From Balnearium lithotrophicum (lineage in GTDB: Bacteria > Aquificota > Aquificia > Desulfurobacteriales > Desulfurobacteriaceae): 50,701 bases of DNA. The stretch covers positions 1 through 50,701 of the forward strand of contig NZ_FXTM01000014.1 in NCBI RefSeq assembly GCF_900182585.1, read 5' to 3'. Each line of letters starts with the position of its first letter. The first letter of the stretch is position 1. Shown piece by piece: positions 15,569 to 36,651 of this stretch. The position numbers and the translations under genes are program-made. The notes under the pieces are model-generated. The model was given only the letters and a program-made list of their open reading frames with translations, was not told the origin of the DNA and did no database searches.

Positions 15569-16561
15569 TCAGAGGGGTAGTTTCTTGATAGCTTCCTGTA
15601 GGTGTTGAGGAGCTAAATGAGCGTAAATTTCAGTTGTTTTGTAGCTTGTATGCCCTAATAACTCTTGAACTGTTTTTAAATCAACCCCTGACATTACCAT
15701 TAGAGAGGCAAATGTATGCCTTAAATCATGAACTCTTAACTCTGGAAATCCTGCCTTCCTAAAGTATTCCTTTAGCCTGTGCTCTATGTGGTCTCGGCTG
15801 TAAGGAATAACCTTCCCAATTGCAGGATAACGTTTAAGGAGCTCCTTTCTGAGGTTAGGATGAATAGGTATAACTCTCGTTTGGAAGTTCTTTGACTTTC
15901 TAACGGTAATCAGGCCCCTCTCTAAGTCAACATCCTTCCAATATAGCCTTACGGCTTCTCCTATTCTCATACCGGTATAGATGAGGAAACGGAAGATGAA
16001 TAACCACTCCTCCCTGTCTATAACTTCCTCCACTTTAGCTATATCCTGAGGTAGGAGAAATCTTGGAGGCTTCTGCTGAACTTTAAGCTGTTTATATCCC
16101 TTCATAGGATTTTCTTTTATGTATTCCCACTCTACGGCCTTTGAGAGAGCCGATTTCAAGGTTCTAATGTGAACGTTAACGGTTACTTTGGAGAGGCCAC
16201 ATTCAAGAAGGTGATTAACGTATTCATCTACATTCCTTTTCGTTATCGCCGATAGATATAAATCTCCTACCACTTCTCTAAATCTGTTTAGAACGTGCCT
16301 TGCCTTAGTGAAGGTCTCCTCTGAGCGGTTATTTTTAGCCCAGTCTAAATATTCTTGAGTAAACTGAGACAGGGGGACTCTGATTCCCTCTTTAAGAACT
16401 ATCAATTTACCCTTCAGGTATTCTCTCTTTAGCTTGTTGTAAATCCTAATAGCCTCCGCCTTGTTACGGGTGCGGAGGCTCTTTTTCTTCCCTCTCTCAA
16501 ATTCTACATACCAGACGCCGTTTTCTCTCTGAAATAGCCTCATACTGATATTAAACTTCAT
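15569..16561 (-). CDS. int: Phage tyrosine integrase
   Basis: Site-specific recombinase for prophage integration and excision. The 330-residue protein has an N-terminal arm-binding region (about 1-60), a SAM-like core-binding domain (about 65-155) and the catalytic domain. Catalytic residues are visible: R199 (TGMRIGEA), H278 and R281 (HDLRHTFA), H304 (LGHTSYKTT) and the nucleophile Y313 (IYAH). All look intact. Its 3' end lies 70 bp from the tRNA-Leu fragment, as expected for an att-proximal integrase. Its start meets the stop of the small HTH gene upstream, a likely Xis. Confidence 0.95.
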   Translation of the reverse strand: MKFNISMRLFQRENGVWYVEFERGKKKSLRTRNKAEAIRIYNKLKREYLKGKLIVLKEGIRVPLSQFTQEYLDWAKNNRSEETFTKARHVLNRFREVVGDLYLSAITKRNVDEYVNHLLECGLSKVTVNVHIRTLKSALSKAVEWEYIKENPMKGYKQLKVQQKPPRFLLPQDIAKVEEVIDREEWLFIFRFLIYTGMRIGEAVRLYWKDVDLERGLITVRKSKNFQTRVIPIHPNLRKELLKRYPAIGKVIPYSRDHIEHRLKEYFRKAGFPELRVHDLRHTFASLMVMSGVDLKTVQELLGHTSYKTTEIYAHLAPQHLQEAIKKLPL

Positions 16562-18408: not shown

Positions 18409-18546
18409 TCAATTAGGTTCTTTTACAACTTCCTTCCAACAAAACAAAAACAAATCAAGCTCAGCAATATCATCTTCTGTTAGTTCAAAAGCTCCTTTCT
18501 TTCTTATGTTCTCCCAAATATCAGCTATTTCGTAGATAGAGGCCAT
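18409..18546 (-). CDS. Small hypothetical protein coupled to thyX
   Basis: A 45-residue acidic protein beginning MASIYEIADIWENIRKK. Its ATG (18544-18546) overlaps the thyX stop (TAATG), and it ends at 18409, next to the antirepressor terminator. It is the last gene of the early minus-strand operon. No family recognised. Tight coupling is the main support. Confidence 0.5.
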   Translation of the reverse strand: MASIYEIADIWENIRKKGAFELTEDDIAELDLFLFCWKEVVKEPN

Positions 18547-19418
18547 TATTCCTCCAAAAATTCCCTTTTAAACCACTCCGCTCTTTTCTGCCTTGCTGGG
18601 GTGAAAATCGGATTACAATCCTCAACCCATCTATCAAGGTAATCAGCCATCATCTTAACGATTTCAGGTTGATGTTCTTTTAATAAGTTCCACATAGATT
18701 TTGCTACAAGCCTTGTCTCCTCTTGAGCTTCGGGATGCAAACGGTGAATAAAGAAATTCAGCCAAGCCCTGTAATCTCCCTGCATCCAGAATTGAGTATA
18801 GAGACCTAACGGAAGGAATGCACGGGCTTGTTCGGGTTCCCAACCTTCAGTTATAAGTTGCTCATAGGCCATCTCCCCCATCATACAAGAACCTATCCTA
18901 ATGTCTGGATGAATAATAGCTTCCCTCCCCAGCCAACAAAAGAACTTCACCTTATTTCCCTTCACATACCGCCTGCTCATTTCCATATAGGAAAAAGCCC
19001 TGTGTCTTTGAATTTGACGGGCTACGAAAATCGGAACTTTGAGCTTAAAGGTAGCAAAAAACCTTTTGTTTATACTAATAGAAGATGAGATATAACTGTC
19101 ATGATCCTGATTGAATTCCTTGATAGCCTTCTCCCAATTTATGTAATCACTATTTCTTAAATCTCCAACATCCCAACACCTCACAAACTCAAACGGACTT
19201 TCATGTCCCCGCTCAATCAGCAAGTTCCAGAGCCTATCAGGGTCTTTGCAGTATTCGTTTCCGTAAGAAATAGAAGCTACGAGACAAACGGCTTCTTTCC
19301 TACTTTCCTCATTTTCGTTAGCCTTGGAGAAGTCCCAGAGCACCACCTTACAGATTGGCGGTTCCTCGTAATCGTAAGGAAATTTCTCGGCAACTTTGTG
19401 GATATATTTAAGTTTCAT
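18546..19418 (-). CDS. thyX: FAD-dependent thymidylate synthase ThyX
   Basis: Makes dTMP from dUMP using flavin and methylene-tetrahydrofolate. The ThyX motif RHRx7S is visible at R138-H139-R140 to S148 (RHRAFSYMEMSRR), with the nearby ESPFEFV helix and RLHPEAQEETR near the C-terminus. At 290 residues it is longer than the usual 220-250, as in some phage forms. Together with dut in the same operon it would direct uracil nucleotides into phage DNA synthesis. It overlaps the wHTH gene upstream by 11 bases. Confidence 0.92.
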   Translation of the reverse strand: MKLKYIHKVAEKFPYDYEEPPICKVVLWDFSKANENEESRKEAVCLVASISYGNEYCKDPDRLWNLLIERGHESPFEFVRCWDVGDLRNSDYINWEKAIKEFNQDHDSYISSSISINKRFFATFKLKVPIFVARQIQRHRAFSYMEMSRRYVKGNKVKFFCWLGREAIIHPDIRIGSCMMGEMAYEQLITEGWEPEQARAFLPLGLYTQFWMQGDYRAWLNFFIHRLHPEAQEETRLVAKSMWNLLKEHQPEIVKMMADYLDRWVEDCNPIFTPARQKRAEWFKREFLEE

Positions 19419-20641: not shown

Positions 20642-21571
20642 CTAAGGGAGTTCTATTGGAGCTTCTTCCTTAACTCTATTAGTCAGTTCTTTGGCTTCCG
20701 GATACTTAATATCATCTAAAGACTTGCTTAATTCATATTCAGGGTCAATTCCTAACTCCATTATTTTCTTTCTCCACCTTTCCTTGGCTTCTTTGATTAC
20801 CTCGATAGCTTCCTCTTTTGTTAACTGCTTAGAGGATTCCTTGCCGAATTTCTCTCTGATGTAGCTCTTATAGTCAAATTCAGCCAATCCAGACCAGGAA
20901 TGAATTCCTTTTATGTATTTCCTGTCTAATTCAATTTTGCTATTCTCAACAGGCTTGGTATTAAGCACTTCCCCAGTTTCCTCATCTATTTCAACTCCCA
21001 TTTCCTCTGCTACGTACATTCCGGACATTTCACTCGGAAATGCCTCACGAAGAGCCTGAACGAGAGCAACTTTTCTAATCATTGTTGCAGGCATAGTTGC
21101 CCAGTTGCTCATTAACTTCCCGTCTTTCGTCTTGCGAGCATATTCCTCAATCGCCACTTCAGTGCGTATAGGGTGATTAAAATCTTTTCTGTAAACCTCA
21201 GCCCAGCCGCCAACAAGTTCCTCCTTGCTCTTGATGTAAAAAGCTCCGTTTCTATACGTAACTTCTCCTGTATCTCTGTTAACCGTAATAACTCCTGCTT
21301 TGTAACCATCTAACTGCTTTGAACGTTCAGCACGTTTAAGAAAAGCATCTTTTCCAACAACTATTACAGGCTGAGAGTTGCCGTATTTGATGAAGTGAAC
21401 ATCATAGGGAGATAAGCTCCTTAATTTGCAGTAGTTAAAGAACTCTTCTATTTCCTCCTGTTTTGCATTAGGAGCGTGATATTTGACGTAAGTAGCTACC
21501 TCGTCAAAGGTATATGTTCTTCCATCTTCTGCTACAATAATTTTTGGACTTTCAATAACTGCTTTTGCCAT
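20642..21571 (-). CDS. bet: RecT/Bet-type single-strand annealing protein
   Basis: A 309-residue phage recombination protein of the Bet family. Key segments are EEFFNYCKLRSLSPYDVHFIKYGNSQP (described in two parts: a helix, then S-P-Y-D), VVGKDAFLKRAE, the YRKDFNHPIRTEV strand and PATMIRKVALVQALREAFP. These match the annealase core of Bet and RecT. It would anneal single strands during phage recombination with the neighbouring SSB. No partner exonuclease (Exo/RecE) is visible in the window. The C-terminal about 80 residues are charged, probably linked to SSB or DNA binding. Confidence 0.88.
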   Translation of the reverse strand: MAKAVIESPKIIVAEDGRTYTFDEVATYVKYHAPNAKQEEIEEFFNYCKLRSLSPYDVHFIKYGNSQPVIVVGKDAFLKRAERSKQLDGYKAGVITVNRDTGEVTYRNGAFYIKSKEELVGGWAEVYRKDFNHPIRTEVAIEEYARKTKDGKLMSNWATMPATMIRKVALVQALREAFPSEMSGMYVAEEMGVEIDEETGEVLNTKPVENSKIELDRKYIKGIHSWSGLAEFDYKSYIREKFGKESSKQLTKEEAIEVIKEAKERWRKKIMELGIDPEYELSKSLDDIKYPEAKELTNRVKEEAPIELP

Positions 21572-25664: not shown

Positions 25665-26247
25665 ACTTTTTCTATCAACAAAGGAGCTCTCTATTTTGTT
25701 TTCAAGGCACGAAAGGACAATTCAAAGGTGGATAGAGAAAGCTCAACCGAGGACAAAGAACGGCAAATACTATGCACCTGACCTTTTCCTCTATTTTGAA
25801 AACAGTATTGCAAGAAAAAACGACAAAAGTAAAGAAGAGTTAGAGTTGGAACTTAAAAGGGTAAAGTTAGAAAAGGAAAGGTTTACCCTTGAAAAGGAAA
25901 GGGGAGAATACGTTAAAAGGGATGATGTTGAATTGGAGTGGGCTCAAAGGGTTTCAGAAATAAAGTCTGGTCTTTTGGCTTTAGAGTTTCGTTTATCTAC
26001 TCAGCTTGCAAATAAGAAAAGGAGTCTCCCTAAAACGAGGGAAATCATAAAAAAAGAGATTCTTGACCTTTTGTGGTCCTACGTTAGAAAGGGGAAGTAC
26101 ATTCCTAAAATAAACGAAAATCTTCCGTTAGACAAACAGGAAGAGATTACGTTTGAATTTTTTCAGAAACTCTCTGAAATCCCCTGCGACAACCCTAAAT
26201 TAGAAATCAAATGCCCTAAAAAGAAAACAAAGCGGGAAAAGAAATGA
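25657..26247 (+). CDS. Terminase small subunit, gpNu1-like
   Basis: A 196-residue DNA-packaging protein. The N-terminus FLSTKELSILFSRHERTIQRWI is a winged helix-turn-helix as in lambda gpNu1, which binds cos. A long charged helix (about residues 60-90: EELELELKRVKLEKERFTLEKE, here noted by position) allows oligomerisation. The C-terminus is strongly basic. It overlaps the large-subunit start by four bases, the classic Nu1-A arrangement. By analogy a cos site should lie nearby; I could not identify it. Confidence 0.8.
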   Translation: MDKLFLSTKELSILFSRHERTIQRWIEKAQPRTKNGKYYAPDLFLYFENSIARKNDKSKEELELELKRVKLEKERFTLEKERGEYVKRDDVELEWAQRVSEIKSGLLALEFRLSTQLANKKRSLPKTREIIKKEILDLLWSYVRKGKYIPKINENLPLDKQEEITFEFFQKLSEIPCDNPKLEIKCPKKKTKREKK

Positions 26248-28040
26248 TTGATTGGACAAAAAGGGAACTGAGAGCTCTAACCCCTCCAGAGGGAATAACG
26301 GTTTCAGAGTGGGCAGATAAATACAGAATACTTTCCTCTCGTTCAAGTAAAGAACCTGGAAAGTGGAAAACCGAGAGAGTTCCCTATGCAAAGGCTGTAA
26401 TGGATGCTTTTTGTGATAACGAAGTTGAGGAAATAGTTCTCTGTTACGGAGCTCAGCTTTCAAAGACGGAAACGATGCTCAACATGTTAGGTTATGCCAT
26501 CCATCAAGACCCTGGACCAGCTATGTTCGTTCTACCGAGTGAAGATATTGCAAGGTCTTTCTCTAAAAACAGGCTTCAGGATATGCTTATTTCCTCAGAA
26601 CCTTTGAGGGAAAGGCTTCCATCTACTTCTCACGACTTTACAAACCTTGAACTAATAATGGAATCTATGACGATTTACTTAGCCTGGGCGGGTTCCCCTG
26701 CAGTTTTGGCGAGTAAACCTGTCAGGTACGTTTTTTTAGATGAGATAGACAAGTACCCTCCCTTTTCAGGAAGGGAGGCAAACCCAATTTCCCTTGCAAA
26801 GGAAAGGACTAACTCCTATCAGGGATTTCATAAAATTGTTTACGCTTCCACTCCAACAACAGAAGACGGCAACATCTGGAAGCAGCTCCAAAGCTGTGGA
26901 ATTATCTATCGCTATCAGGTCCCCTGTCCAAAGTGCAAAAAATTCATGTTCCTTGAATTCCCAAATCTTAAGTGGGAAGATGTGGAGAATCCTGAGGATG
27001 TAATAGATAAAACCTGGTACGAGTGTCCTAACTGCGGGGCTAAAATAACGGAAAACTATAAACACGAGATGCTTTTAAAGGGCAGGTGGGTAGAGTGGAA
27101 AAGGAAGTCAAAGAGGAGGAGAAAGATAGGCTTCTGGCTCTCAGCTCTTTACTCTCCATTTATCCCTTGGGGAAAGTTAGCTTACGAGTTTTTGGTTTCA
27201 AAGGATTCTCCTTCTGAACTAATGAACTTTGTAAACTCAAAACTTGCAGAACCTTTCAAGGAAACGGTTAAGAGGAGGGAAGTTTCAGATATTTTAATCT
27301 GGAAAAGGGATTATCCCCCCGGCATCTGTCCTTCCGATACGGTAGCTTTGACGGCAGGGGTGGACGTTCAAAAGGACGGATTCTACTTCACAATCTGGGC
27401 GTGGAATACTCAGTTAGAACAGTATTTGGTCCGCTACGGCTTTGTTAGAAACTTTGATGAACTTGAAGCGGTTTTGTTTAATTCCCGTTATCTCGTCGGG
27501 GATTACCCTGCAAAGATTTCCCGAATTTTCATAGACTCCGGAAACGACACGAGGGAGGTTTACGAGTGGGCTTGGAAATACTTGGGGGTGGTTTTCCCGA
27601 TAAAAGGACAATCTCAGATAAGGTCAGGGGTTCCATTCAAAGAAACATTAGTTGAAAGGCTACCGGGGTCAAGTTTAAGGTACGGAACGGGATTGAGGCT
27701 CGTTAACATAGACGTTAACTACTATAAGGATGACATCCAGAGGAGATTTGAGCAGGGAAAGATTTTTCTACACAATGAAACCGGGGAAGACTTTGCAAAG
27801 CAGATTATTGCAGAGGAAAAGAGGAGGGTTAGAAGGAATAACGTTTATGTGGAAACGTGGGTGAAGGTTCACCAAGATAACCACTATTTGGACTGTCTCG
27901 TTTACTCTAACTGTGCAGCAGACCACTTACAGGTAAGATTTTTGGAGCCAATTTTAAAGCAGGTTAACCCTCAGTCTGTAGGGAGCTTTACTCAGAACAA
28001 TAGCGGCTGGCTTCCTAAAAAGAAGGGATGGTTGAAATGA
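26244..28040 (+). CDS. Terminase large subunit, gpA family
   Basis: A 598-residue GpA-family terminase, the ATPase and endonuclease that cuts and packages phage DNA. The ATPase region has EEIVLCYGAQLSKTETMLN as Walker-A-like segment and VFLDEIDKYPP as Walker B (FLDEID). A zinc-like knuckle CPKCKKF ... CPNCG lies near residues 230-270. The nuclease part has TAGVDVQKDGFYF with RNase-H-like Asp residues and IDSGNDTREVY. Family and lambda gene order (Nu1, A) imply cos-type packaging. Confidence 0.92.
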   Translation: MIDWTKRELRALTPPEGITVSEWADKYRILSSRSSKEPGKWKTERVPYAKAVMDAFCDNEVEEIVLCYGAQLSKTETMLNMLGYAIHQDPGPAMFVLPSEDIARSFSKNRLQDMLISSEPLRERLPSTSHDFTNLELIMESMTIYLAWAGSPAVLASKPVRYVFLDEIDKYPPFSGREANPISLAKERTNSYQGFHKIVYASTPTTEDGNIWKQLQSCGIIYRYQVPCPKCKKFMFLEFPNLKWEDVENPEDVIDKTWYECPNCGAKITENYKHEMLLKGRWVEWKRKSKRRRKIGFWLSALYSPFIPWGKLAYEFLVSKDSPSELMNFVNSKLAEPFKETVKRREVSDILIWKRDYPPGICPSDTVALTAGVDVQKDGFYFTIWAWNTQLEQYLVRYGFVRNFDELEAVLFNSRYLVGDYPAKISRIFIDSGNDTREVYEWAWKYLGVVFPIKGQSQIRSGVPFKETLVERLPGSSLRYGTGLRLVNIDVNYYKDDIQRRFEQGKIFLHNETGEDFAKQIIAEEKRRVRRNNVYVETWVKVHQDNHYLDCLVYSNCAADHLQVRFLEPILKQVNPQSVGSFTQNNSGWLPKKKGWLK

Positions 28041-28121
28041 TTAAATACTTTAGCTTTTGGTTTAGGTGGTCTATAATTATTTTGCTTTAATTTTGGACTG
28101 CCCATAGATAGAAAAAAGTAA

Positions 28122-28556
28122 TTAAAATGCTGTTGGCTGTATAAACCAGTGAGAAAAATCATATCCCACTCTATAAACAGTTCTTTCTTTTGGTTTCACA
28201 GAAATCTTAATTTCCGAAACGGAAACTCCTACCCCACAAATACTATTAGGCTTCATACCTAAAATATGAATTCCTGCAGGTAAATAGAGTATTACTTTTT
28301 CTTTAGTTCTTACTTCTGCAACTTTTTCACCATCGATGAAAATTGTAGCTGGACACACCAACGCACCAGGAATGTGTCCTTTATCTTCTTTTACTATTAC
28401 AACACCACAGTTTTTACAGGGAGTAGAGTATTTATTGGTAAATATTCTATTTTTAGGAACAAGCTTAGCTTGTTCTGTTTTTATGGGTTTAGAAGTATAA
28501 CAACCAGTTAAAACCAATGGAGTTAACAAAACAATAAGTATTTTAACTAAATTCAT
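28122..28556 (-). CDS. Phage-encoded lipoprotein
   Basis: A 144-residue protein with a signal peptide and lipobox: MNLVKILIVLLTPLVLTGC, with cleavage before C19. The mature part has CKNC and two further Cys and a beta-rich pattern. No family recognised. It lies between terminase and the replication block on the opposite strand and has its own short spacer, typical of a moron gene expressed from the prophage. Such lipoproteins often block superinfection by the same phage or alter the cell surface; here that is inference. Confidence 0.7.
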   Translation of the reverse strand: MNLVKILIVLLTPLVLTGCYTSKPIKTEQAKLVPKNRIFTNKYSTPCKNCGVVIVKEDKGHIPGALVCPATIFIDGEKVAEVRTKEKVILYLPAGIHILGMKPNSICGVGVSVSEIKISVKPKERTVYRVGYDFSHWFIQPTAF

Positions 28557-28598
28557 ATTCCTCCCCTAATTGCGTAAATCAGTGAAAATTTTACAAAA

Positions 28599-28811
28599 TT
28601 ATTTCCTTCTTTTTTCTATAAACTCCACCAGGTCTCTCATTCTAAAACGTATTATTTTTTCATCTAAAACCACTTTAGGAAGTTTCCCCTGTTCCGCCCA
28701 ACGCAAAACGGTTCTCTTATCTACCTGACATATATAAGCAACATCGGTAGGTTTTAGCAATCTTTCTGGAAAAACTTCTCTAATTCTTTTCTTCAATACA
28801 TCTCTCTCCAT
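28599..28811 (-). CDS. MerR/excisionase-like HTH protein
   Basis: A 70-residue protein. LLKPTDVAYICQVDKRTVLRWAEQ and the later GKLPKVVLDEKIIRFRMRDLVEF form the MerR-type HTH and wing typical of excisionase-family regulators. It is the last gene of the replication operon. Function unknown; perhaps a regulator of late transcription or replication. Confidence 0.65.
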   Translation of the reverse strand: MERDVLKKRIREVFPERLLKPTDVAYICQVDKRTVLRWAEQGKLPKVVLDEKIIRFRMRDLVEFIEKRRK

Positions 28812-28814
28812 ATT

Positions 28815-29306
28815 CTATAACCCCCCGAAAAGACATTTTCTTCCGTATTCAGCTATTAGAAGAGCCTCAGCAGGTCCATCACTTTTTATCTGCACTCCAG
28901 GGAACATCTGTTTTGCTTTCTCTATTGATTTCTTTTTCTTCTCTTTTCTCGGTCTTTTCTTGTGTTTACTCCCGTGTATAAATGCCTGCCACCTTTGAGG
29001 CGGAACTTCTTCAAAGGGGATATGAAGGGCTATCAGTATTCCTAAAATCTGCCCGTAATGTTTCATTAGATTTCCGCTGCTGACAGCTCCCTGTTTTGGG
29101 TATGGATGCTGCTTTTCAACAAAACATCGATATATTTCGCCTCTACGCTCAAAAAGAAGGTCAGCAAGGGTGGATGTATCTGGCATAGGAAAAACTTCAA
29201 CAGATTTACCCTCTGCTGAAGGTAAGAAGGGAATAAATGCAACTCCTCCCTTTTTACCAGGGTCAATACCGACGATTAGTGTTTTCTCAGAAATCAAACA
29301 ATCCAT
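28815..29306 (-). CDS. RuvC-like Holliday junction resolvase
   Basis: A 163-residue RuvC-fold nuclease. LIVGIDPGKKGGVAF holds the first catalytic Asp, VEKQHPYPKQG the Glu after the second strand, and SDGPAEALLIAEYG the C-terminal acidic pair in D-x-x-E/D-A-x-x-I-A. KHKKRPRKEKKKK is a basic patch, as in phage resolvases. It would resolve branched intermediates during replication or packaging, in the place of lambda rap/rusA-type functions. It overlaps dnaB by 20 bases. Confidence 0.82.
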   Translation of the reverse strand: MDCLISEKTLIVGIDPGKKGGVAFIPFLPSAEGKSVEVFPMPDTSTLADLLFERRGEIYRCFVEKQHPYPKQGAVSSGNLMKHYGQILGILIALHIPFEEVPPQRWQAFIHGSKHKKRPRKEKKKKSIEKAKQMFPGVQIKSDGPAEALLIAEYGRKCLFGGL

Positions 29307-30579
29307 CTACTTCCTCCTCCCCTTTAGATACTGGTGTAGCTGGGCTTAATGTGAAGTGAGGGAATCCGTTGTCAAAGTCCACGATAATTTCAGAGCCAGC
29401 CTTGTTTACACGGCACTTTGCAATTTGAATTACGAGCTTGTCCGGAGCTTCTTTTAAGTTTCTATGGAGCAGTAGAATGTTAGAGGCATCTTGTTCAAGG
29501 TTTCCTGTCTCTTTTATATTCTCAAGGCTCGGCTTATCTTTCCCTGTCCTAACTCCACGGTTTAGCTGTGCAAGAGCTACAACGGGACAGGTGTTTTTAG
29601 ATATTTCCCTTAATTCTGCCGATGCGTAGTCAAGAAATTCTTTTCTTGTCTTGAAATCTTTCGAATGGTTGTGAATTATCTGAACATAATCGATATAGAC
29701 AATATCTGGCTGAACCTCAAAGATTCTTGCTTTGATTTGCGGCATGGTGAACTGGCCAGCTTCTATGTGAAGTGGCAGGCTCTCTATTTCAGTAACGGCA
29801 TTTACGATGGTTTCAAAATCCTCCCAGCCAAAGACTATTCGTTTAAGAGGAATTCCTGTGTGGATAGAGATGAGCCTTGCCATAACTTCTTCTTCTGTTA
29901 GCTCCAGAGAAAAGAACTGAACCTTTATTCCTCTTTTTGCCTGATTTAGAGCAAGAGCAAGGCCTGTTACAGTTTTTCCTATAGAAGGCCTTGCACAGAT
30001 AAGGGTCAGTTCATTTCTATATGAAAAGTACTGGTCTATCTCACCTGAACCCGTATGGATTCCAGGAACCGTATCCTGGTTATAAATCTCCTCCATTTTC
30101 TCAAGCCATCTGGAACCCACCTCTGCAACAGTTCCTCCCTTTTCCTGTCTATCCCTCTCAAGGTCTGATAGAAGCCCTAAAGCTTCTTCCCTCGTTATCT
30201 TTCCAGAGGCTAATTTCTCGGCTATTTCAAGTTCTTTTCTCTTTTTAGAGGACTCTATCAGCTTCTCTACGCAGACTTTGAATTTTTTCTCGTTTTCAAT
30301 AGCAAACTCTACTGCATAGAGTAGAGTGCTCTCCAAGCTTTCTCTTTCCTTCTTGTTGGCAATTTCTTTAGGGATGCATGTAGTAGCTTCCTCAAATGTT
30401 TTGCCGTTTTCAAAGCCTTCCTTAAGCATAGAAAAGATTTTCTGTAAGTCTGTTAGCACGAAATCATCTGGCCTTAATCTTGAAATCCCGTAGTAAAAAG
30501 CTTTTTCATCTACAAGCATCGTCCCGATAACTGTATATTCAAGCTCTACATCCCTTGCAGCTGCCACTACTCTACTCAT
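29287..30579 (-). CDS. DnaB-family replicative helicase
   Basis: A 430-residue phage DnaB. The N-terminal domain (about 1-110) has the LEYTVIGTMLVDEKAF pattern of DnaB_N. The RecA core holds the Walker A ARPSIGKT (196-203), ELT (FFSLELTEEEV), Walker B DIVYIDYVQ and ALAQLNRGV, all DnaB motifs. It is a complete hexameric helicase carried by the phage, rather than recruitment of the host helicase alone. It overlaps the upstream loader gene by eight bases. Confidence 0.93.
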   Translation of the reverse strand: MSRVVAAARDVELEYTVIGTMLVDEKAFYYGISRLRPDDFVLTDLQKIFSMLKEGFENGKTFEEATTCIPKEIANKKERESLESTLLYAVEFAIENEKKFKVCVEKLIESSKKRKELEIAEKLASGKITREEALGLLSDLERDRQEKGGTVAEVGSRWLEKMEEIYNQDTVPGIHTGSGEIDQYFSYRNELTLICARPSIGKTVTGLALALNQAKRGIKVQFFSLELTEEEVMARLISIHTGIPLKRIVFGWEDFETIVNAVTEIESLPLHIEAGQFTMPQIKARIFEVQPDIVYIDYVQIIHNHSKDFKTRKEFLDYASAELREISKNTCPVVALAQLNRGVRTGKDKPSLENIKETGNLEQDASNILLLHRNLKEAPDKLVIQIAKCRVNKAGSEIIVDFDNGFPHFTLSPATPVSKGEEEVDGLFDF

Positions 30580-31318
30580 CCCTCCCTCCTCTTCTTTTGT
30601 CTGTGCCTACTACGTGAACGGCAATTCCGCACTCAAGCAGTCTTGAAATAGCTTTTTCAGATAAAAGGCCAGGAGAATCCTCGGTTCCGATAAACTTTGA
30701 GGGAGGAGCTATATTTGTTGTTACTATGATGAAAGTCTCTGTGTCGTAAGCCTGCAGGATTAGTTTTTCTAAAGCAGGAACGGCATCTTCTTCTAAGTCG
30801 TCAATCATTATGATGTCGTAGAACTTTGTAATAGCCGTAAATGGAATTCTTTCCCAGAATTCGTAGTGAGTTCTTGAGGGTGTAATCTTTGTTTCAACGG
30901 CATAGGTGATGTCGTCTGTAAACTGCTGGAGCTCTAAGGAACCGTTGTATAAACCTAAAAGCTCATCGTTTGTAAGAAATAGAGGGTAAAGCTTTTCCGT
31001 TACTGTTTTTATAGCAAGATACTTTACTCCCATTAATGTCTTATAATTTCCTATATCACCGCTTAAGATTAGGAAAAGTGGTTTGAATCCCTTTTCTCTT
31101 ATCTCTTCTTCCTGTCTTTTTATTTCATTGAAGTAGGTTCTCGTATATTCTTGCGGAATAACGTTTTTAGACATAGCTTTAATTAACAGCGGAATATCTC
31201 CTTTGCGGTTTTTCGGCAGATTGCAGTTAACTAAGCTGTTCCAAATCCTGCTGTCGCAATCTGCCGTCTTTTCTAAGAATCTTTTTAGGTCGTTGAGAGT
31301 TAAAGTTTTCATCTCCAA
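30572..31318 (-). CDS. DnaC/P-like helicase loader (AAA+)
   Basis: A 248-residue AAA+ protein between the initiator and helicase genes, as lambda P or DnaC. Walker B is IIMIDDLEED, followed by sensor-1-like FIIVTTNIAPPSKF and a C-terminal SEKAISRLLECG box that matches the DnaC Arg finger region. The expected Walker A is seen only as SGDIGNYKT, with Tyr in place of the second Gly of GKT. The function as helicase loader is inferred from order and fold. It overlaps dnaB and the initiator gene by a few bases each. Confidence 0.75.
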   Translation of the reverse strand: MEMKTLTLNDLKRFLEKTADCDSRIWNSLVNCNLPKNRKGDIPLLIKAMSKNVIPQEYTRTYFNEIKRQEEEIREKGFKPLFLILSGDIGNYKTLMGVKYLAIKTVTEKLYPLFLTNDELLGLYNGSLELQQFTDDITYAVETKITPSRTHYEFWERIPFTAITKFYDIIMIDDLEEDAVPALEKLILQAYDTETFIIVTTNIAPPSKFIGTEDSPGLLSEKAISRLLECGIAVHVVGTDKRRGGRDE

Positions 31319-32247
31319 CCTCCCTTACAAGCGAATTTGACGTTTGGTGTATTTGTTACTTGATAAGAAACCGGTTGGCTTGTTAAATCAGTTACTCTGT
31401 AGCTGAAGGCAAAGAATGAATATCCTTTGTCTATTATCCACTTATCGCGGAATTTAAAGAAGTCAGGAACCTTTTGGATTAGTTGATTAGCAAGGTCTTT
31501 TAGTTCCTCTTGGTTAGCTGCAGAATTAAGGAGAGCTTTCTCTACTCTTTTTATTGATGCTGTATCAATTAGAGGGTACCTGTTGAATCTTCTCTTATAC
31601 TCAGTTTTAAAGGCATTAATGATTTGTTGAACTACAAGAGATATTAGAGAAGGAGTTATTTCCTTCTCTTCTAAATTCTCCTTTCTTTCTTCCTTTTCAT
31701 CACCATTCGGTTTTTGCTCGGCGGGTTGGTTTTTTACCTCCTTTTTCTCTTCTCTAATATTTTCTTTTAAATTTTTATCTAAATAATCTTTTCTAGAAAT
31801 ATTATTTACGGTGCCATCTGGGCTTTGTGAGGCTTGGGCTTCGGGAGATTTTTTAGACCCATTTTGGGTCTTACTTAGACCTATATTAGGTCTTTCTAAA
31901 ACCTGTTTTGGGTCTTCTTTAGACCCATTTTGGGTCTTTTTTAGACCTTTATTAGGTTTATTTGAAGAACCTAATTTAGTTGTTATGAATTCTTTTAATT
32001 TATCAATGTCTAAAGAGATTTTCTTACCCTCTCGTCTAATGAAAGGGAGTTGTTTTAATTCACAGTAGATATGGTCTTTCCTTATTCCCGTTTTCTCTGC
32101 TAAAATATCAATGCTAAAAGCCCCTCCCCCTTTGAGATTGAGGAAGGAGAACAGGCAGAGGACGATGCACCTCTGCCTGTTAGTGAGAAGTTTTGAGTTG
32201 TAGAGGAGTTCGGGAAAATCGTAGAGAGAATATTTTTCTTTACTCAT
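31309..32247 (-). CDS. Replication initiator (O-like) with origin inside the gene
   Basis: A 312-residue initiator. The N-terminal about 95 residues are a winged-helix domain (LTNRQRCIVLCLFSF..., IDILAEKTGIRKDHIYCELKQL, split by position) like the DNA-binding domain of lambda O. Residues about 97-175 are a low-complexity, charged linker that contains KTQNGSK twice, exactly 22 residues apart. The C-terminus (about 200-312) is a globular domain, likely the contact to the loader. The linker DNA carries five palindromic iterons (31855-31959), as in the lambda O gene. It touches the gene upstream. Confidence 0.8.
   Translation of the reverse strand: MSKEKYSLYDFPELLYNSKLLTNRQRCIVLCLFSFLNLKGGGAFSIDILAEKTGIRKDHIYCELKQLPFIRREGKKISLDIDKLKEFITTKLGSSNKPNKGLKKTQNGSKEDPKQVLERPNIGLSKTQNGSKKSPEAQASQSPDGTVNNISRKDYLDKNLKENIREEKKEVKNQPAEQKPNGDEKEERKENLEEKEITPSLISLVVQQIINAFKTEYKRRFNRYPLIDTASIKRVEKALLNSAANQEELKDLANQLIQKVPDFFKFRDKWIIDKGYSFFAFSYRVTDLTSQPVSYQVTNTPNVKFACKGGWR
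31740..31812. other. AT-rich candidate unwinding element beside the iterons
   Basis: The 70 bp on the downstream side of the iterons, still inside the initiator gene, is mostly A and T (for example AAATAATATTTC and TTTAGATAAAAATTTAAAAG on the minus strand). In lambda the same place holds the DNA unwinding element. Its boundaries are judged by eye. Confidence 0.55.
31855..31959. repeat. Replication origin: five 22-bp-spaced palindromic iterons
   Basis: Five 17-bp units begin at 31855, 31877, 31899, 31921 and 31943, exactly 22 bp apart. Units 1 and 4 are AGACCCATTTTGGGTCT, unit 2 AGACCTATATTAGGTCT, unit 3 AAACCTGTTTTGGGTCT, unit 5 AGACCTTTATTAGGTTT; a weak sixth starts near 31966. Each is an inverted repeat of AGACCY/RGGTCT. 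The 22-bp period is not a multiple of three, so the repeat is kept at DNA level, not protein level. The layout matches the iterons bound by lambda O. Confidence 0.85.
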
Positions 32248-32687
32248 TATTTAACCTCCTTTAACTGCTGTTTAAACTTGATTAGTTCGTCTATTGCCTC
32301 GTCTATTTCTTTGATGCAGGCTTTAGCTTCCTCTTTTGTTATTTCTCCATCCTCTAACGCTTTAGCTATTTCGGAAATAGCTTCTCCAGTTTCCTTCATT
32401 AGTTTTCCAAAGGTTGTAGGGAGAGAACAGGAGTTAATTTCAATAGCCCTCATCCCGATAAGTTCAGCTATTTTTTGAACCGGCTTTCTGAGTTTTAATC
32501 CTGCTATGAGAGCTAAAAATCCAGCTAAGGAAGGAACTCTTTCACCGGAGGCGTATTTCTCAACCGATTTCGGGCTAACTCCTACCTTGAAAGCAATTAG
32601 CTCGTAGGTATATCCCTTTTCGTGAGCTTCAAGAATTGCAAGCTTTACTAAATCCTCGGCAACTGATTGAAAGGCTTCCTTACACAT
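32247..32687 (-). CDS. HTH regulator in CII position
   Basis: A 146-residue protein. YTYELIAFKVGVSPKSVEKYASGERVPSLAG is an HTH of the Cro/C1-like type; the C-terminal half is a charged helical region (ISEIAKALEDGEITKEEAKACIKEI noted by position). It lies between the Cro-like gene (after the terminator) and the O-like gene, the place of lambda cII. Whether it activates a repressor promoter as CII does is unknown. Phage CII-family regulators of other phages are also HTH-plus-helical proteins of this size. Confidence 0.65.
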   Translation of the reverse strand: MCKEAFQSVAEDLVKLAILEAHEKGYTYELIAFKVGVSPKSVEKYASGERVPSLAGFLALIAGLKLRKPVQKIAELIGMRAIEINSCSLPTTFGKLMKETGEAISEIAKALEDGEITKEEAKACIKEIDEAIDELIKFKQQLKEVK

Positions 32688-32778
32688 TTTCTACCTCTTG
32701 TAGGTTTCTTTTTTCAGAGCTCCCCTTATCCCCTCTCCTGTTAGGTTTTATCTTCAAAACCAGAAGGGAGGGGGAAAT

Positions 32779-32805
32779 GAAAAAGACGCCCGCCGAAGCG
32801 GACGC
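32779..32805 (-). terminator. Intrinsic terminator between Cro-like and CII-position genes
   Basis: On the minus strand GCGTCCGC and GCGGGCGT pair around a TTCG tetraloop closed by C-G (very stable), and TTTTT follows directly. It lies in the 169-bp gap downstream of the Cro-like gene, in the position of lambda tR1, so expression of the CII-position, O- and P-like genes should depend on read-through or antitermination. Confidence 0.8.
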
Positions 32806-32842
32806 TTTCCTGGAGGGACTCCAGAAGGGGAGGGAAAGGGGG

Positions 32843-32861
32843 GATAGATGTTCCATCTATC
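32843..32861 (-). other. Perfect hairpin overlapping the Cro-like stop codon
   Basis: GATAGATG and CATCTATC form an 8-bp perfect stem with a three-base loop. It includes the TAG of the Cro-like gene (32857-32859) and is followed on the minus strand by C-rich sequence and the terminator at 32779-32805. Its position between cro and the terminator is that of a nut site, so a boxB-like role is possible but unproven. Confidence 0.4.
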
Positions 32862-33093
32862 TTACCCCCGCAGGGGTTTTGCGGGTTAAAACATCAAATA
32901 GTGTTTTATCTTTTGGGCTTAAGAGTTCTCTTACGGCTTCTTGTGAATATCCTAACTCCAGTAGAGCCGCTGCTTTATCAGAAGGAAGAAATCTTTTCCC
33001 TTTTAGGATTTGGTCTAAGAATTGTGGAGGAATGTTTAACTTTCTGGCTAACTCTGATTTACTCTCTTTAAGCTCTATTTCCAATAGCTTCAT
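32857..33093 (-). CDS. Cro-like HTH repressor
   Basis: A 78-residue protein. SKSELARKLNIPPQFLDQILKGKRFL is the Cro/C1 helix-turn-helix, and the C-terminus is short and charged, as for Cro-type dimers. It is divergent from the S24 repressor gene across a 110-bp intergenic region with shared operators, the lambda cro/cI arrangement. AGGAGG precedes the ATG. Confidence 0.75.
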   Translation of the reverse strand: MKLLEIELKESKSELARKLNIPPQFLDQILKGKRFLPSDKAAALLELGYSQEAVRELLSPKDKTLFDVLTRKTPAGVR

Positions 33094-33106
33094 AATTAAT
33101 CCTCCT

Positions 33107-33155
33107 GCTTTAAATATATTAAAGCTATTGCTTCAGATTGTCAATACTTTAAAGC
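33107..33155 (-). promoter_or_regulatory. PR-like promoter and operators between the Cro-like and repressor genes
   Basis: On the minus strand TTGACA (33144-33139), a 17-bp spacer and TAATAT (33121-33116) give a near-consensus promoter for the Cro-like operon. GCTTTAA-5-TTAAAGC (33107-33125) overlaps the -10 and CTTTAAAGC (33147-33155) lies just beyond the -35. The same half-site TAAAGC occurs twice in perfect inverted form at the early promoter at 22875-22938. Confidence 0.7.
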
Positions 33156-33166
33156 AAATTAGAGGA

Positions 33167-33196
33167 TTGAAAATTGTTTAATGCAGTTGCTATAAA
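33167..33196 (+). promoter_or_regulatory. Leaderless PRM-like promoter of repressor 1
   Basis: TTGAAA at 33167-33172, an 18-bp spacer and TATAAA at 33191-33196. The expected start point falls at 33203-33204, the A of the ATG at 33204-33206. No Shine-Dalgarno lies before the ATG. The mRNA is thus predicted leaderless, as lambda cI from PRM. The operator CTTTAAAGC at 33147-33155 lies just upstream. Confidence 0.6.
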
Positions 33197-33203
33197 TAAC
33201 AAC

Positions 33204-33869
33204 ATGGCTGAGACAATTGGACAGAAGATTGAAAAGTTAAGAAAAGCCCAAAAATTAAGCCGCCGTGAATTAGCCGAAAGAATTATTAGTAAGTTTGGTG
33301 GTGCATCAGTTGAAGGAATGTCTCAATACATTTATCAATTAGAAAAAGGAAAAAGAAAACCAAAAGTAGAAACTCTTAATAAAATAGCTGCTGTTCTTAA
33401 TGTCCCTCCCTCATATTTCTTTGAAGACCAAAGCCAAAAAGAATTTGAATACTTAGGAAAGTCCGACGGTTATGTAAAACTTCCGATATACGGGGAGGTG
33501 GGAGCTGGGGACATGATAGTTCCTGTTTCAGAAGGAGATTTCTACGCCGTTCCTCTTGCTGGTAGGGCAAAGCCTAAGAAAGACTGGTTTGTTCTAAAAG
33601 TCAAAGGGAAAAGCATGGAGCCTTACATTCACGACGGCTCTTTCTTGGTAGTAGAACCTGCTCAATTTGGATATGCAGAAAGCGGTCAAATAGTAGTTCT
33701 CTGCGAAGAAGATGGAGATTACCTGCACGGTTGCACGGTAAAGAAAATAAAAGATGCAGGGGATAAATGGTTAGTAATACCTCTTAATGAATCGTTTGAG
33801 GCTTATACGGTAGATAAAAACAGAGCAAAAATAAAAGGCATAGTGCGGAAAGTGATTTGGGAGCCGTAA
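33204..33869 (+). CDS. Phage repressor 1, HTH plus S24 peptidase (CI-like)
   Basis: From the ATG at 33204 it is 221 residues. The HTH (about 5-60) has SRRELAERIISKFGG and the recognition part, then SQYIYQLEKGKRKPK. The S24 autocleavage domain shows the cleavage pair A101-G102 (EVGAGD), the nucleophile S127 (KGKSMEP) and the general-base Lys near 170 (TVKK). It should keep lysogeny and be cleaved after DNA damage with RecA. It faces the Cro-like gene. An upstream in-frame start lies before the promoter and was rejected. Confidence 0.88.
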   Translation: MAETIGQKIEKLRKAQKLSRRELAERIISKFGGASVEGMSQYIYQLEKGKRKPKVETLNKIAAVLNVPPSYFFEDQSQKEFEYLGKSDGYVKLPIYGEVGAGDMIVPVSEGDFYAVPLAGRAKPKKDWFVLKVKGKSMEPYIHDGSFLVVEPAQFGYAESGQIVVLCEEDGDYLHGCTVKKIKDAGDKWLVIPLNESFEAYTVDKNRAKIKGIVRKVIWEP

Positions 33870-33937
33870 TCTTTAATCTCATTTAACTGTTGCAACACTT
33901 AACTTTAATCATACTGCTTTTATAGTTCCTTATTTCT

Positions 33938-34189
33938 CCCTTGACAATAAACTCAGCAAATAGAAAAAGAAACCGGAAGAGATTTTGGAGTTTTACGCGA
34001 GGCGTTAAAGTTTAAAGATTTACCTAAACTCTATCTTAAAGAGTATAAAGACAGACTTTACCTTCAAATGTACAACCAATCTCTTAAAAAGAACGTTAAC
34101 ATAGCGAATTTAAAAGATGAAGAGCATATACGCTTTCTCCTTAAAACTTTCGTAACTCTCTGGAATGACTACAGAGAAAGTCTGGAATA
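33938..34189 (+). pseudogene. Truncated copy of an early-gene promoter and 3' part
   Basis: Positions 33938-33955 repeat the CCCTTGACAATAAACTCA of the promoter at 23.99 kb. They run straight into 33955-34189, a copy of the last about 77 codons of the CxxC gene (23031-23525), in the opposite orientation. The first 139 nt are identical; the last about 95 differ at many positions but keep the frame and stop. The joint between promoter and 3' part implies a deletion of the first gene and half of the second. It is a non-functional remnant unless it acts as a 5' region for repressor 2. Confidence 0.75.
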
Positions 34190-34196
34190 AGGTTGG

Positions 34197-34225
34197 TTGA
34201 AATGATTACAACAAGCTGTGATAAT
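34197..34225 (+). promoter_or_regulatory. Leaderless promoter of repressor 2
   Basis: TTGAAA at 34197-34202, a 17-bp spacer and GATAAT at 34220-34225. The start point is expected at 34232, the A of the ATG at 34232-34234. No Shine-Dalgarno is visible, so the mRNA is probably leaderless, as for repressor 1. Confidence 0.55.
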
Positions 34226-34231
34226 GTTGAT

Positions 34232-34882
34232 ATGGAGATAGGGAAGAAGATAAAATTACTAAGGGAAAGAAAAGGATTGACTCAACAGGAGCTTGCCGAG
34301 TTAATAGGGACAACTCAGCAAACAGTTGCTTACTGGGAGGTAGGGCAAAGGAAACCAAGATATTCTAAACTGCAAAAATTAGCAGAAGTTTTTGGAGTTC
34401 CTATATCTTACTTTTTAGAAGATAAAAAACAACACTGGGATTTAAATACTGTATTTCAGGAAGGAAAAATAATTCCTGTCCCAATTTATGCTGAAGCTCA
34501 AGCTGGTTCCTTTGGTGGGTACACAATGCCAACGCCTGAAAAATACTTTCCAACACATGAATCGATGCTAAAAGGACTTCCTCCTGAGAGAGTTTTTTGG
34601 ATAAAGATCCAGGGGCATTCTATGGAACCTGAATATCATCCGGGGGATATGATTTTAGTGGCTGACCCTTCTTGGTATGAAGTAAAAGAAGGAGCTCCAG
34701 TTGTGGTTTTAAACGGTGATGGGGAATTAACTGTTAAATATTACCACTATGACCCTAAAAATAAAATGATAGTTTTAGAACCAGCAAACCCTTCCTATAA
34801 ACCAATACTTATTCCAGAAAAGGAACTTTTTTCTGGGGAATATATCTTTTTCCCGGTAATAGCACACACAAGGATTTATTAA
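34232..34882 (+). CDS. Phage repressor 2, HTH plus S24 peptidase
   Basis: From the ATG at 34232 it is 216 residues. HTH residues are GLTQQELAELIGTTQQTVAYWEVGQRKPR (noted by position about 15-43), then a linker and the S24 domain with A91-G92 (EAQAGS), S130 (QGHSMEP) and K169 (LTVKY). The site pattern is intact, so RecA-stimulated self-cleavage is expected. HTH recognition-helix residues differ from repressor 1, so it should bind a different operator, possibly the ACTCAATTGAGT palindrome near 23.99 kb. It lies upstream of the late morphogenesis genes. Confidence 0.85.
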   Translation: MEIGKKIKLLRERKGLTQQELAELIGTTQQTVAYWEVGQRKPRYSKLQKLAEVFGVPISYFLEDKKQHWDLNTVFQEGKIIPVPIYAEAQAGSFGGYTMPTPEKYFPTHESMLKGLPPERVFWIKIQGHSMEPEYHPGDMILVADPSWYEVKEGAPVVVLNGDGELTVKYYHYDPKNKMIVLEPANPSYKPILIPEKELFSGEYIFFPVIAHTRIY

Positions 34883-34942
34883 TCCCTATTTCTTTCCTGC
34901 CTTCTAACGTTCTTTCAATATTCGTTCTATTTCATTCAATAT

Positions 34943-34962
34943 AGCCTAATTTTTAGGCTTTA
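34943..34962 (+). terminator. Hairpin terminator after repressor 2
   Basis: AGCCTAA and TTAGGCT pair round a T loop, followed by TTTAATT. A 20-bp identical copy lies at 49555-49574. It ends the repressor transcript before the gpW-like gene. Both strands could use it. Confidence 0.6.
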
Positions 34963-35008
34963 ATTCCATTCTTCCCTGCCTTATAGTAATCCAAGGAGGT
35001 TAAAAACC

Positions 35009-35218
35009 TTGACTCTTTCGGAGCTTTACCAGAGGAAGGCAGAAATCCTTACGGCCATTCAGAAGATAGAAAAGGAAGGGCAGGAGTACAGAATCGGCGA
35101 CAGGTGGATGAAAAGGGCTGACCTTCCTGCACTCTACAAGCAGCTTCAGGAGATTAACTCTCAGATTCAAAGGATTGAATCGGGGGGAACGTTTACCTTC
35201 GTGAGGTTTTCAGGGTGA
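35009..35218 (+). CDS. Head-tail joining protein, gpW-like
   Basis: A 69-residue, mostly helical protein starting at TTG 35009 with AAGGAGG nearby. Lambda gpW is 68 residues and lies in the same place, between terminase and portal; length, helical charge pattern (LYKQLQEINSQIQRIE) and a short C-terminal strand agree. Sequence similarity is weak, so the call rests on length and order. It stops inside the portal start. Confidence 0.65.
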   Translation: MTLSELYQRKAEILTAIQKIEKEGQEYRIGDRWMKRADLPALYKQLQEINSQIQRIESGGTFTFVRFSG

Positions 35219-36651
35219 AGGTTTTGGAAAAGGTTGAAAATCTAATCGGATTTTTCTTCCCTAACTGGAGGGCTAAAAGGGAAGCTTTTAAGCTCTACTC
35301 CCGTTCATTAAAGGCTGCCGAAAAGGGAAGGCTTACACAGAACTGGAAAAACTGGGTAACTTCCCCCAACTCCATTCTTTCAGAGCTCTCAACAGTTCGC
35401 TCCAGAGCAAACTGGCTCTACGAAAATAACTGCTGGGTAAGGGCTTCCGTTGACATTTTACTTTCCAGAATTGTAGGTTCAGGAACTACTTTACAGGCTC
35501 TAACAAAAAATGAAGTCTTTAACGATAAGGCCGAAAATCTCTTTAAGGAGTGGAGTTATTCGGCAGACTACTACAGACAGTTTCACTTTGGAGACATAGA
35601 GAGGTTAGCGATTTTAAAGCTCTTTACCGATGGTGGTGTCTTTTTTCACATTGTAACCGATACCGACAATAAAGACACAGCTCCTTTTTCAATAGAAGTT
35701 CTTGAATACGGAAGGCTTGCATCTTTTTGGGATAAGCCTTACGGGGATAACGAAATAATAAACGGAATAGAGGTTGATAAGTCCGGGAAAGTAGTTGCAT
35801 ATCACTTTACCGTGGCTCCAGACAGCTTTCTTAATCCTACCCTTGAAACTAAGAGAGTTCAAGCTGAGGATGTAATTCACTTTTCTCCGTTTAGAAGGCC
35901 TCACCAGCTTTTAGGAATTCCCCTCTTAGCTCCTGTAATTCCCTATGCCTACCACCTTGACGACCTGATAGAGGCGGAGCTGATAAATGCAAAGGTTTCA
36001 GCAAGCTTCGGAATTGCAATTAAGAAGAACGCTCCTGTGGGACAGTTTAACCAACAGACCCAGCAGAGGGAACTGGAGATAGCTCCGGGGATGATAGCAG
36101 AGCTCAATCCTGGAGAGGACATTGCAGTTATAGACCCAAAAAGACCGGGGAACACATTTGACGACTTTGTAAAGCTGATTTTAAGGGGAATGGGAAGAGC
36201 TATTGGCCTTTCCTACGAGCAGATTTCTGGGGATAAGTCGGAGGTTAACTACTCATCTGCAAGACACTCAGAACTTGAGCTCAGGGATTTCATCCTTCCA
36301 TTCAGGAAGTCCCTTGAACGCTACTTCTTAAGGCCCGTTTACACCGAATTTGTGAAGAATGCCGTTAGTTTGGGCAATCTGAACATAATGGGTGCAATCA
36401 AGGACTGGAGAAACTGGACGGCTCACAGGTGGATATTTAAGGGATTTGACTGGGTTGACCCTCTAAAGGAGGCTCAGGCAAAGAGGTTGGAGCTCCTTTT
36501 GGGACTAACGACCCTTGCAGATGAAGCTGCAGCAAAGGGTAAGGACTGGAAGGAGCTCGTAAAACAGAGGGCTAAGGAGGTTGAGTTCATGGACAGTCTC
36601 GGTCTTTCAGATATATCCGAAACTCAGGTTAGGGGTAAGAAATGGGAGTAA
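35215..36651 (+). CDS. Portal protein, lambda gpB-like
   Basis: A 478-residue portal protein. VRSRANWLYENNCWVRASVDIL near the N-terminus and later IHFSPFRRPHQLLGIPLLAPVIPYAYHLDDLIEAEL (positions about 220-255, key residues R-P-x-Q-x-x-G-I-P) are conserved in lambda-type portals, as is GLSYEQISGDKSEVNYSSARH. It forms the dodecameric channel of the head. Starts at GTG 35215, overlapping the gpW-like stop. Confidence 0.9.
   Translation: MKVLEKVENLIGFFFPNWRAKREAFKLYSRSLKAAEKGRLTQNWKNWVTSPNSILSELSTVRSRANWLYENNCWVRASVDILLSRIVGSGTTLQALTKNEVFNDKAENLFKEWSYSADYYRQFHFGDIERLAILKLFTDGGVFFHIVTDTDNKDTAPFSIEVLEYGRLASFWDKPYGDNEIINGIEVDKSGKVVAYHFTVAPDSFLNPTLETKRVQAEDVIHFSPFRRPHQLLGIPLLAPVIPYAYHLDDLIEAELINAKVSASFGIAIKKNAPVGQFNQQTQQRELEIAPGMIAELNPGEDIAVIDPKRPGNTFDDFVKLILRGMGRAIGLSYEQISGDKSEVNYSSARHSELELRDFILPFRKSLERYFLRPVYTEFVKNAVSLGNLNIMGAIKDWRNWTAHRWIFKGFDWVDPLKEAQAKRLELLLGLTTLADEAAAKGKDWKELVKQRAKEVEFMDSLGLSDISETQVRGKKWE

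Follow-up and report, generated by a model that had tools for sequence, protein, structure and literature searches.

In bacteriophage lambda, dimers of the O protein bind inverted-repeat iterons that lie within the O gene and open an AT-rich region (PMC5043065, PMC7466680, PMC6022878). The origins of Stx phages have six iterons (PMC7466680), and oriL of phage SPP1 lies inside gene 38 (PMC6316719). In the lambda record, the annotated iteron starts within O are 20, 24 and 23 bp apart. A comparable arrangement was found in the DNA stretch analyzed here (50,701 bp; hereafter the window), which is one complete contig of a 1.73-Mb genome. An O-like initiator gene encoding 312 amino acids (ORF 31309-32247, minus strand) holds an array of palindromes and an AT-rich stretch, and these very probably constitute a lambda-type origin within the initiator gene, to which the initiator would bind and from which replication would proceed. 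While this plan is already known from lambda, what is new is the unnamed protein family of the initiator, which is outside Pfam, PHROGs and NCBIfam.

The identical initiator (100%) is carried by a provirus contig in IMG/VR (35,133 bp), and window positions 15569-50701 span as much DNA as this provirus. This segment opens with a phage-type integrase gene (15569-16561), and the contig does not include the right provirus end. A ThyX-like gene (18546-19418) and a RecT-like gene (20642-21571) were recognized by eye within the segment. The lysogeny and replication block (28.6-34.9 kb) sits inside the head module (window 26244-36651), flanked by the terminase large subunit gene and a portal-like gene. 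The block includes a divergent CI/LexA-like repressor gene (33174-33869, plus strand; HTH_3 and Peptidase_S24 matches). On the minus strand, it is followed by genes for a Cro-like HTH protein (32857-33093; HTH matches), a CII-like regulator upstream of the initiator (32247-32687; phrog_101, E 2e-11; Phage_CP76, E 4e-9), the initiator itself, a DnaC-like AAA+ helicase loader analogous to lambda P (30572-31318), a DnaB-like replicative helicase (29287-30579; DnaB_C, E 4e-39; phrog_19, E 2e-59) and a RuvC-like Holliday junction resolvase (28815-29306; phrog_1770, E 1.5e-26). The PHROG match of the loader was weak (DnaC-like, E 0.018), and its GDIGNYKT and IDD motifs (Walker motifs) were kept in all four aligned relatives. 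A promoter-like TTGACA-17-TAATAT sequence directed towards the initiator (33116-33144, minus strand), a possible pR analogue, was picked up by a consensus scan only, and such sites were no more numerous in the region than in shuffled sequences.

Within the initiator gene, five 17-bp hyphenated palindromes, each composed of two 6-bp arms around a 5-bp centre, follow each other at a pitch of exactly 22 bp. Read on the plus strand, these are iteron 1 at 31855-31871 (AGACCCATTTTGGGTCT), iteron 2 at 31877-31893 (AGACCTATATTAGGTCT), iteron 3 at 31899-31915 (AAACCTGTTTTGGGTCT), iteron 4 at 31921-31937 (again AGACCCATTTTGGGTCT) and iteron 5 at 31943-31959 (AGACCTTTATTAGGTTT). In units 1 to 5, respectively, 6, 6, 4, 6 and 5 of the 6 arm pairs matched, i.e., three units are perfect palindromes. 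Tandem repeat analysis of the window with TRF returned the array with a period of 22 and the top score (114). When five palindromes at 22-bp pitch were scored, the array obtained 27 of 30 points, whereas 500 dinucleotide shuffles of the initiator gene reached at most 20 and 500 synonymous-codon shuffles that kept protein and codon usage at most 24 (mean 17.5, sd 1.7). With the same palindrome score, alternative pitches of 17-29 bp gave only 16-18. Thus, the five regularly spaced palindromic units described in an earlier note on this DNA were confirmed by their coordinates, by TRF and by the shuffles. The weak sixth unit of that note exists as a degenerate copy (31967-31983), but is offset by 24 bp from the fifth rather than by 22 bp; its counterpart in the related locus L048 is a perfect palindrome. 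As the note had also stated, the peptide KTQNGSK recurs only at every third unit, the copies being 66 bp apart. The array is explained by neither protein sequence nor codon usage.

The AT-rich stretch at 31749-31808 is a candidate DNA unwinding element. According to nearest-neighbour energies, no other of the 50,642 60-mers of the window is as unstable. It lies on the downstream side of the array with respect to the gene, and the gap between the two is 46 bp; the adjoining AT-rich stretch claimed previously is therefore real, but not immediately adjacent. A 13-mer (AGAAAAGATTATT) that also occurs in the lambda AT-rich region was missing from nine other lambdoid O regions and was taken as chance. 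The GC skew mostly tracked gene direction, with no shift particular to 31.8 kb.

AlphaFold2 predicted three parts for the initiator: a winged-helix DNA-binding domain (aa 4-94; 31966-32238, minus strand; pLDDT about 75-80), a disordered linker (aa 95-193; 31669-31965, minus strand; pLDDT about 30) and a helical C-terminal domain (aa 199-289; 31381-31653, minus strand; pLDDT about 90), the latter common to the relative in genome G115 and probably contacting the helicase loader. Both the AT-rich stretch and the five main iterons belong to the part of the gene that encodes the predicted linker. Since the linker appears disordered, its residues would be free to change, and DNA signals could be tolerated and altered here without breaking the protein.

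The initiator matched none of the Pfam, PHROGs and NCBIfam models. Its N-terminal domain was not matched by named initiator families including Phage_rep_O (PF04492) and the PHROG O-like families, the plasmid initiator families of Pfam and NCBIfam gave no match for the initiator, and a PF04492 search of its own genome returned no match. Among PDB entries, compared by sequence and by fold, the winged-helix model matched generic winged helices only; lambda O is likewise without a PDB sequence match. No relative of the initiator was found in phage GenBank records by tblastn. When the winged helix was compared with 10 lambda-O-type domains by hhalign, an E-value of 5.6e-4 (probability 30%) was obtained, whereas other phage initiators reached 0.0013-0.0018 at best and non-initiator controls 0.05-0.2. 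This score, which beats the controls yet is close to those of other initiators, suggests that the winged helix belongs to a broad phage initiator winged-helix class. The C-terminal domain could not be aligned with the C-terminus of lambda O.

Relatives of the initiator were few, with four other loci: L047 and L048 on viral contigs and one locus each in the same-family genomes G124 and G115. In L047, where the N-terminal part of the initiator is 75% identical, both the ACCY/RGGT sites and the 22-bp pitch are retained. In L048 (initiator domain 64% identical), the 22-bp pitch and the centre are retained and the half-site is TGCY/RGCA. All six units of L048 are switched symmetrically from ACCY/RGGT to TGCY/RGCA; a single arm base of one unit is the exception. 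When the six units were compared position by position with those of the window, all 24 cells were different at half-site positions 2, 3, 13 and 14, compared to none of 24 at positions 4, 5, 11 and 12. In G124 (L003; about 36% identical), TCCC/GGGA sites at a pitch of 23 bp occupy the same gene position and are followed by AT-rich 14-bp repeats. Thus, the spacing, the loss of which in close relatives was to count against an origin, is 22 bp in L047 and L048 (23 bp in L003), and the co-variation looked for took the form of a changing half-site sequence with constant geometry. The recognition helix of the window domain differs from that of L048 at three residues (D58E, C62R and Q66S). A residue-to-base code sought by eye in the recognition helices was discarded, as four sequences were too few.

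The initiator gene of L003 (1483-2419; G124 contig C37) has a frame break right after the iterons: an ORF at 1483-1929 overlaps with a second one at 1853-2419 that is read in another frame, due to either a true mutation or an assembly error. Given this break, the L003 copy may be non-functional. The relative in G115 (L002:426-1412; contig C56) shares the C-terminal domain and the loader, while its N-terminal half is different and aligns poorly. Here, direct AGGTGAAC repeats at steps of 22-23 and 12 bp (positions 785, 808, 830, 842, 887, 899, 921 and 944 of L002) are followed by AT-rich repeats (948-1006). In this one case, it looks as if DNA-binding domain and sites had been exchanged as one cassette.

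A search of the GTDB contigs with a three-sequence profile matched the G115 contig alone, and neither the loader nor the C-terminal domain, used as queries, retrieved any further phage from viral contigs. The weak matches within the phylum (L005, L006 and L008) had no iteron-like array by eye. Two other loci were observed in passing. In L037:7071-8162 (G089 contig C32), a winged-helix initiator gene ahead of a DnaB gene contains 12-bp GGAAACAGCAAC repeats and 15-bp AT-rich repeats, possibly another type of in-gene origin. In L051:994-1854 (G133 contig C6), from a same-family genome, a gene scored above the Phage_rep_O cut-off; it may represent a genuine lambda-type O of this group of bacteria, or else contamination.

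The geometry was also used to scan viral contigs blindly for exact matches to three palindromes (half-site-N5-half-site) at a set pitch. Three ACCY-N5-RGGT palindromes at 22 bp occurred only in the window phage and L047. With TGCY-N5-RGCA at 22 bp, 15 stretches were found, which are partly non-independent, as some come from one contig or from close relatives. As judged from translations, 14 of the 15 overlap initiator-like genes with an N-terminal winged helix, and all 10 representative proteins scanned matched PHROG replication-initiation families (E < 0.001). The fifteenth (L096:4418-4474) is located outside the genes found and consists of three TTTGCCCTTTGGGCATTTCCCA-type units, identical to each other and spaced at a 22-bp pitch; it adjoins AT-rich DNA and is a candidate intergenic origin or operator. 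At a pitch of 27 bp, the same TGCY/RGCA pattern gave 68 stretches, none with a recognizable initiator; 64 had a covering ORF, and all 64 were in or resembled 9-residue protein repeats. A pitch of 27 bp, a multiple of three and of 9, enriches protein repeats, and this control is a contrast rather than a neutral background. The contrast supports a non-triplet pitch as a mark of DNA function, as had been argued in the earlier note. Since the 22-bp palindrome pitch finds mostly initiator genes in raw viral DNA, an annotation-free search for phage origins is suggested.

Three other explanations of the repeats were weighed. It is improbable that they act as RNA, i.e., as tandem hairpins of the initiator transcript controlling translation, stability or termination. 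For the array in sense orientation, an RNA folding energy of -45.0 kcal/mol was obtained, compared to -25.4 kcal/mol (sd 5.0, minimum -41.3) for synonymous-codon shuffles, and on the antisense strand two of the units resemble terminators. However, RNA folding is to be expected of every array of DNA palindromes and also occurs with the lambda iterons (PMC7466680), whereas a pitch of exactly 22 bp, half-sites that change jointly around an A-rich centre and the placement within initiator genes fit protein sites on DNA rather than hairpins. Even less probable is that the palindromes are operators of a phage repressor (CI, Cro or CII-like) or sites of auto-repression by the initiator rather than an origin. 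Dimeric repressors typically have palindromic sites with a centre of 5 bp, and one exact ACCT-N5-AGGT site (32693-32705) is located just upstream of the CII-like start, where it overlaps the ribosome-binding site and could be due to chance. Repressor operators are unlikely because the CI/Cro promoter region has no exact site; moreover, the array is within a gene beside the least stable DNA of the window, and the sites vary between relatives together with the initiator gene that holds them. Although a repeat of 22 residues is present in the linker (KTQNGSK twice), the notion that the DNA repeat arises secondarily from a repetitive amino acid sequence of the linker is scarcely tenable and was excluded by the protein-preserving codon shuffles, which stay below the array score, and by the concerted change of both arms in six units between relatives, a pitch of 22 not being a multiple of three and the triplet pitch of 27 bp yielding protein repeats and no recognizable initiators.

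An origin within the initiator gene, as preferred here, would serve theta replication of a temperate phage that resides as a prophage in a Thermovibrio-type bacterium, following the lambda plan. Transcription from a repressor-controlled early promoter would lead to synthesis of the initiator, and its N-terminal winged helix, probably as dimers, would bind the six palindromes in its own gene. The assembled initiator complex may then strain and open the neighbouring AT-rich stretch. Subsequently, the C-terminal domain would hand over to the DnaC-like loader, which would place the phage DnaB on the opened DNA. With regard to evolution, it is possible, albeit doubtful, that the initiators of the Thermovibrio phages form a separate winged-helix family that converged on lambda-type 6-5-6 sites and switched half-sites at least twice (ACCY, TGCY, TCCC) while pitch and domain plan were kept. 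If this were true, these phages would provide a natural series of differing initiator/origin pairs. The window and L048 offer a natural experiment on co-change of initiator and site, as their domains are about 70% identical, while four symmetric positions of the site are different in all six copies.

Among described systems, iteron plasmids of the Rep/RepA type share with the window tandem initiator sites in helical phase and AT-rich DNA beside them. An iteron plasmid origin was rejected since the window sites are palindromes and not direct repeats and since no plasmid initiator family was matched. SPP1 resembles the window in layout: repeats and an AT-rich unwinding element lie in the initiator gene 38 (gp38/oriL), and a loader (gp39) and a DnaB-family helicase (gp40) are present (PMC6316719), but the SPP1 repeats are direct and a second origin exists. 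The IMG/VR loci L082-L095, with HTH_36-type and other genes of PHROG 'replication initiation' families, have 22-bp palindromic arrays and an N-terminal winged helix like the window, but differ in half-site (TGCY/RGCA) and protein family.

The closest resemblance is to lambda O/ori-lambda and the lambdoid phages P22, HK446, KO-TP1, PhiR30_1 and SEN22. The same palindrome search revealed arrays with A-rich centres in the lambda-type O genes of lambda and of these five phages, and no convincing array in two Pseudomonas phages. Differences from lambda concern the pitch (uniformly 22 bp versus 20, 24 and 23 bp), the distance between AT-rich stretch and array (46 bp versus a few bp), the helicase supply (own DnaB and a DnaC-like loader versus lambda P) and the initiator itself, which has no Phage_rep_O match. 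Hence, the view that protein and sites are unlike those of lambda holds for the protein, which stands outside the named families, but not for the sites, which show the same 6-5-6 design with A-rich centre and, in the O genes of PhiR30_1 and KO-TP1, even the ACCY/RGGT half-site of the window. A new initiator/iteron pair, as proposed in the earlier note, is a fair description at the family level, the design itself being known. In agreement with that note, the arrangement mirrors lambda ori in O with respect to site geometry, gene order and AT-rich stretch. Like the origins of lambda and the lambdoids, the proposed origin of the window lies in the initiator gene at similar codons; in all of them, four to six hyphenated 6-5-6 palindromes with an A-rich 5-bp centre are spaced about two helical turns apart, and an AT-rich stretch follows downstream within the gene. 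The initiator is composed of winged helix, linker and C-terminal domain, with CII encoded before it and the loader after it. The origin plan of lambda would thereby be extended to a phage of a deep-branching thermophile.
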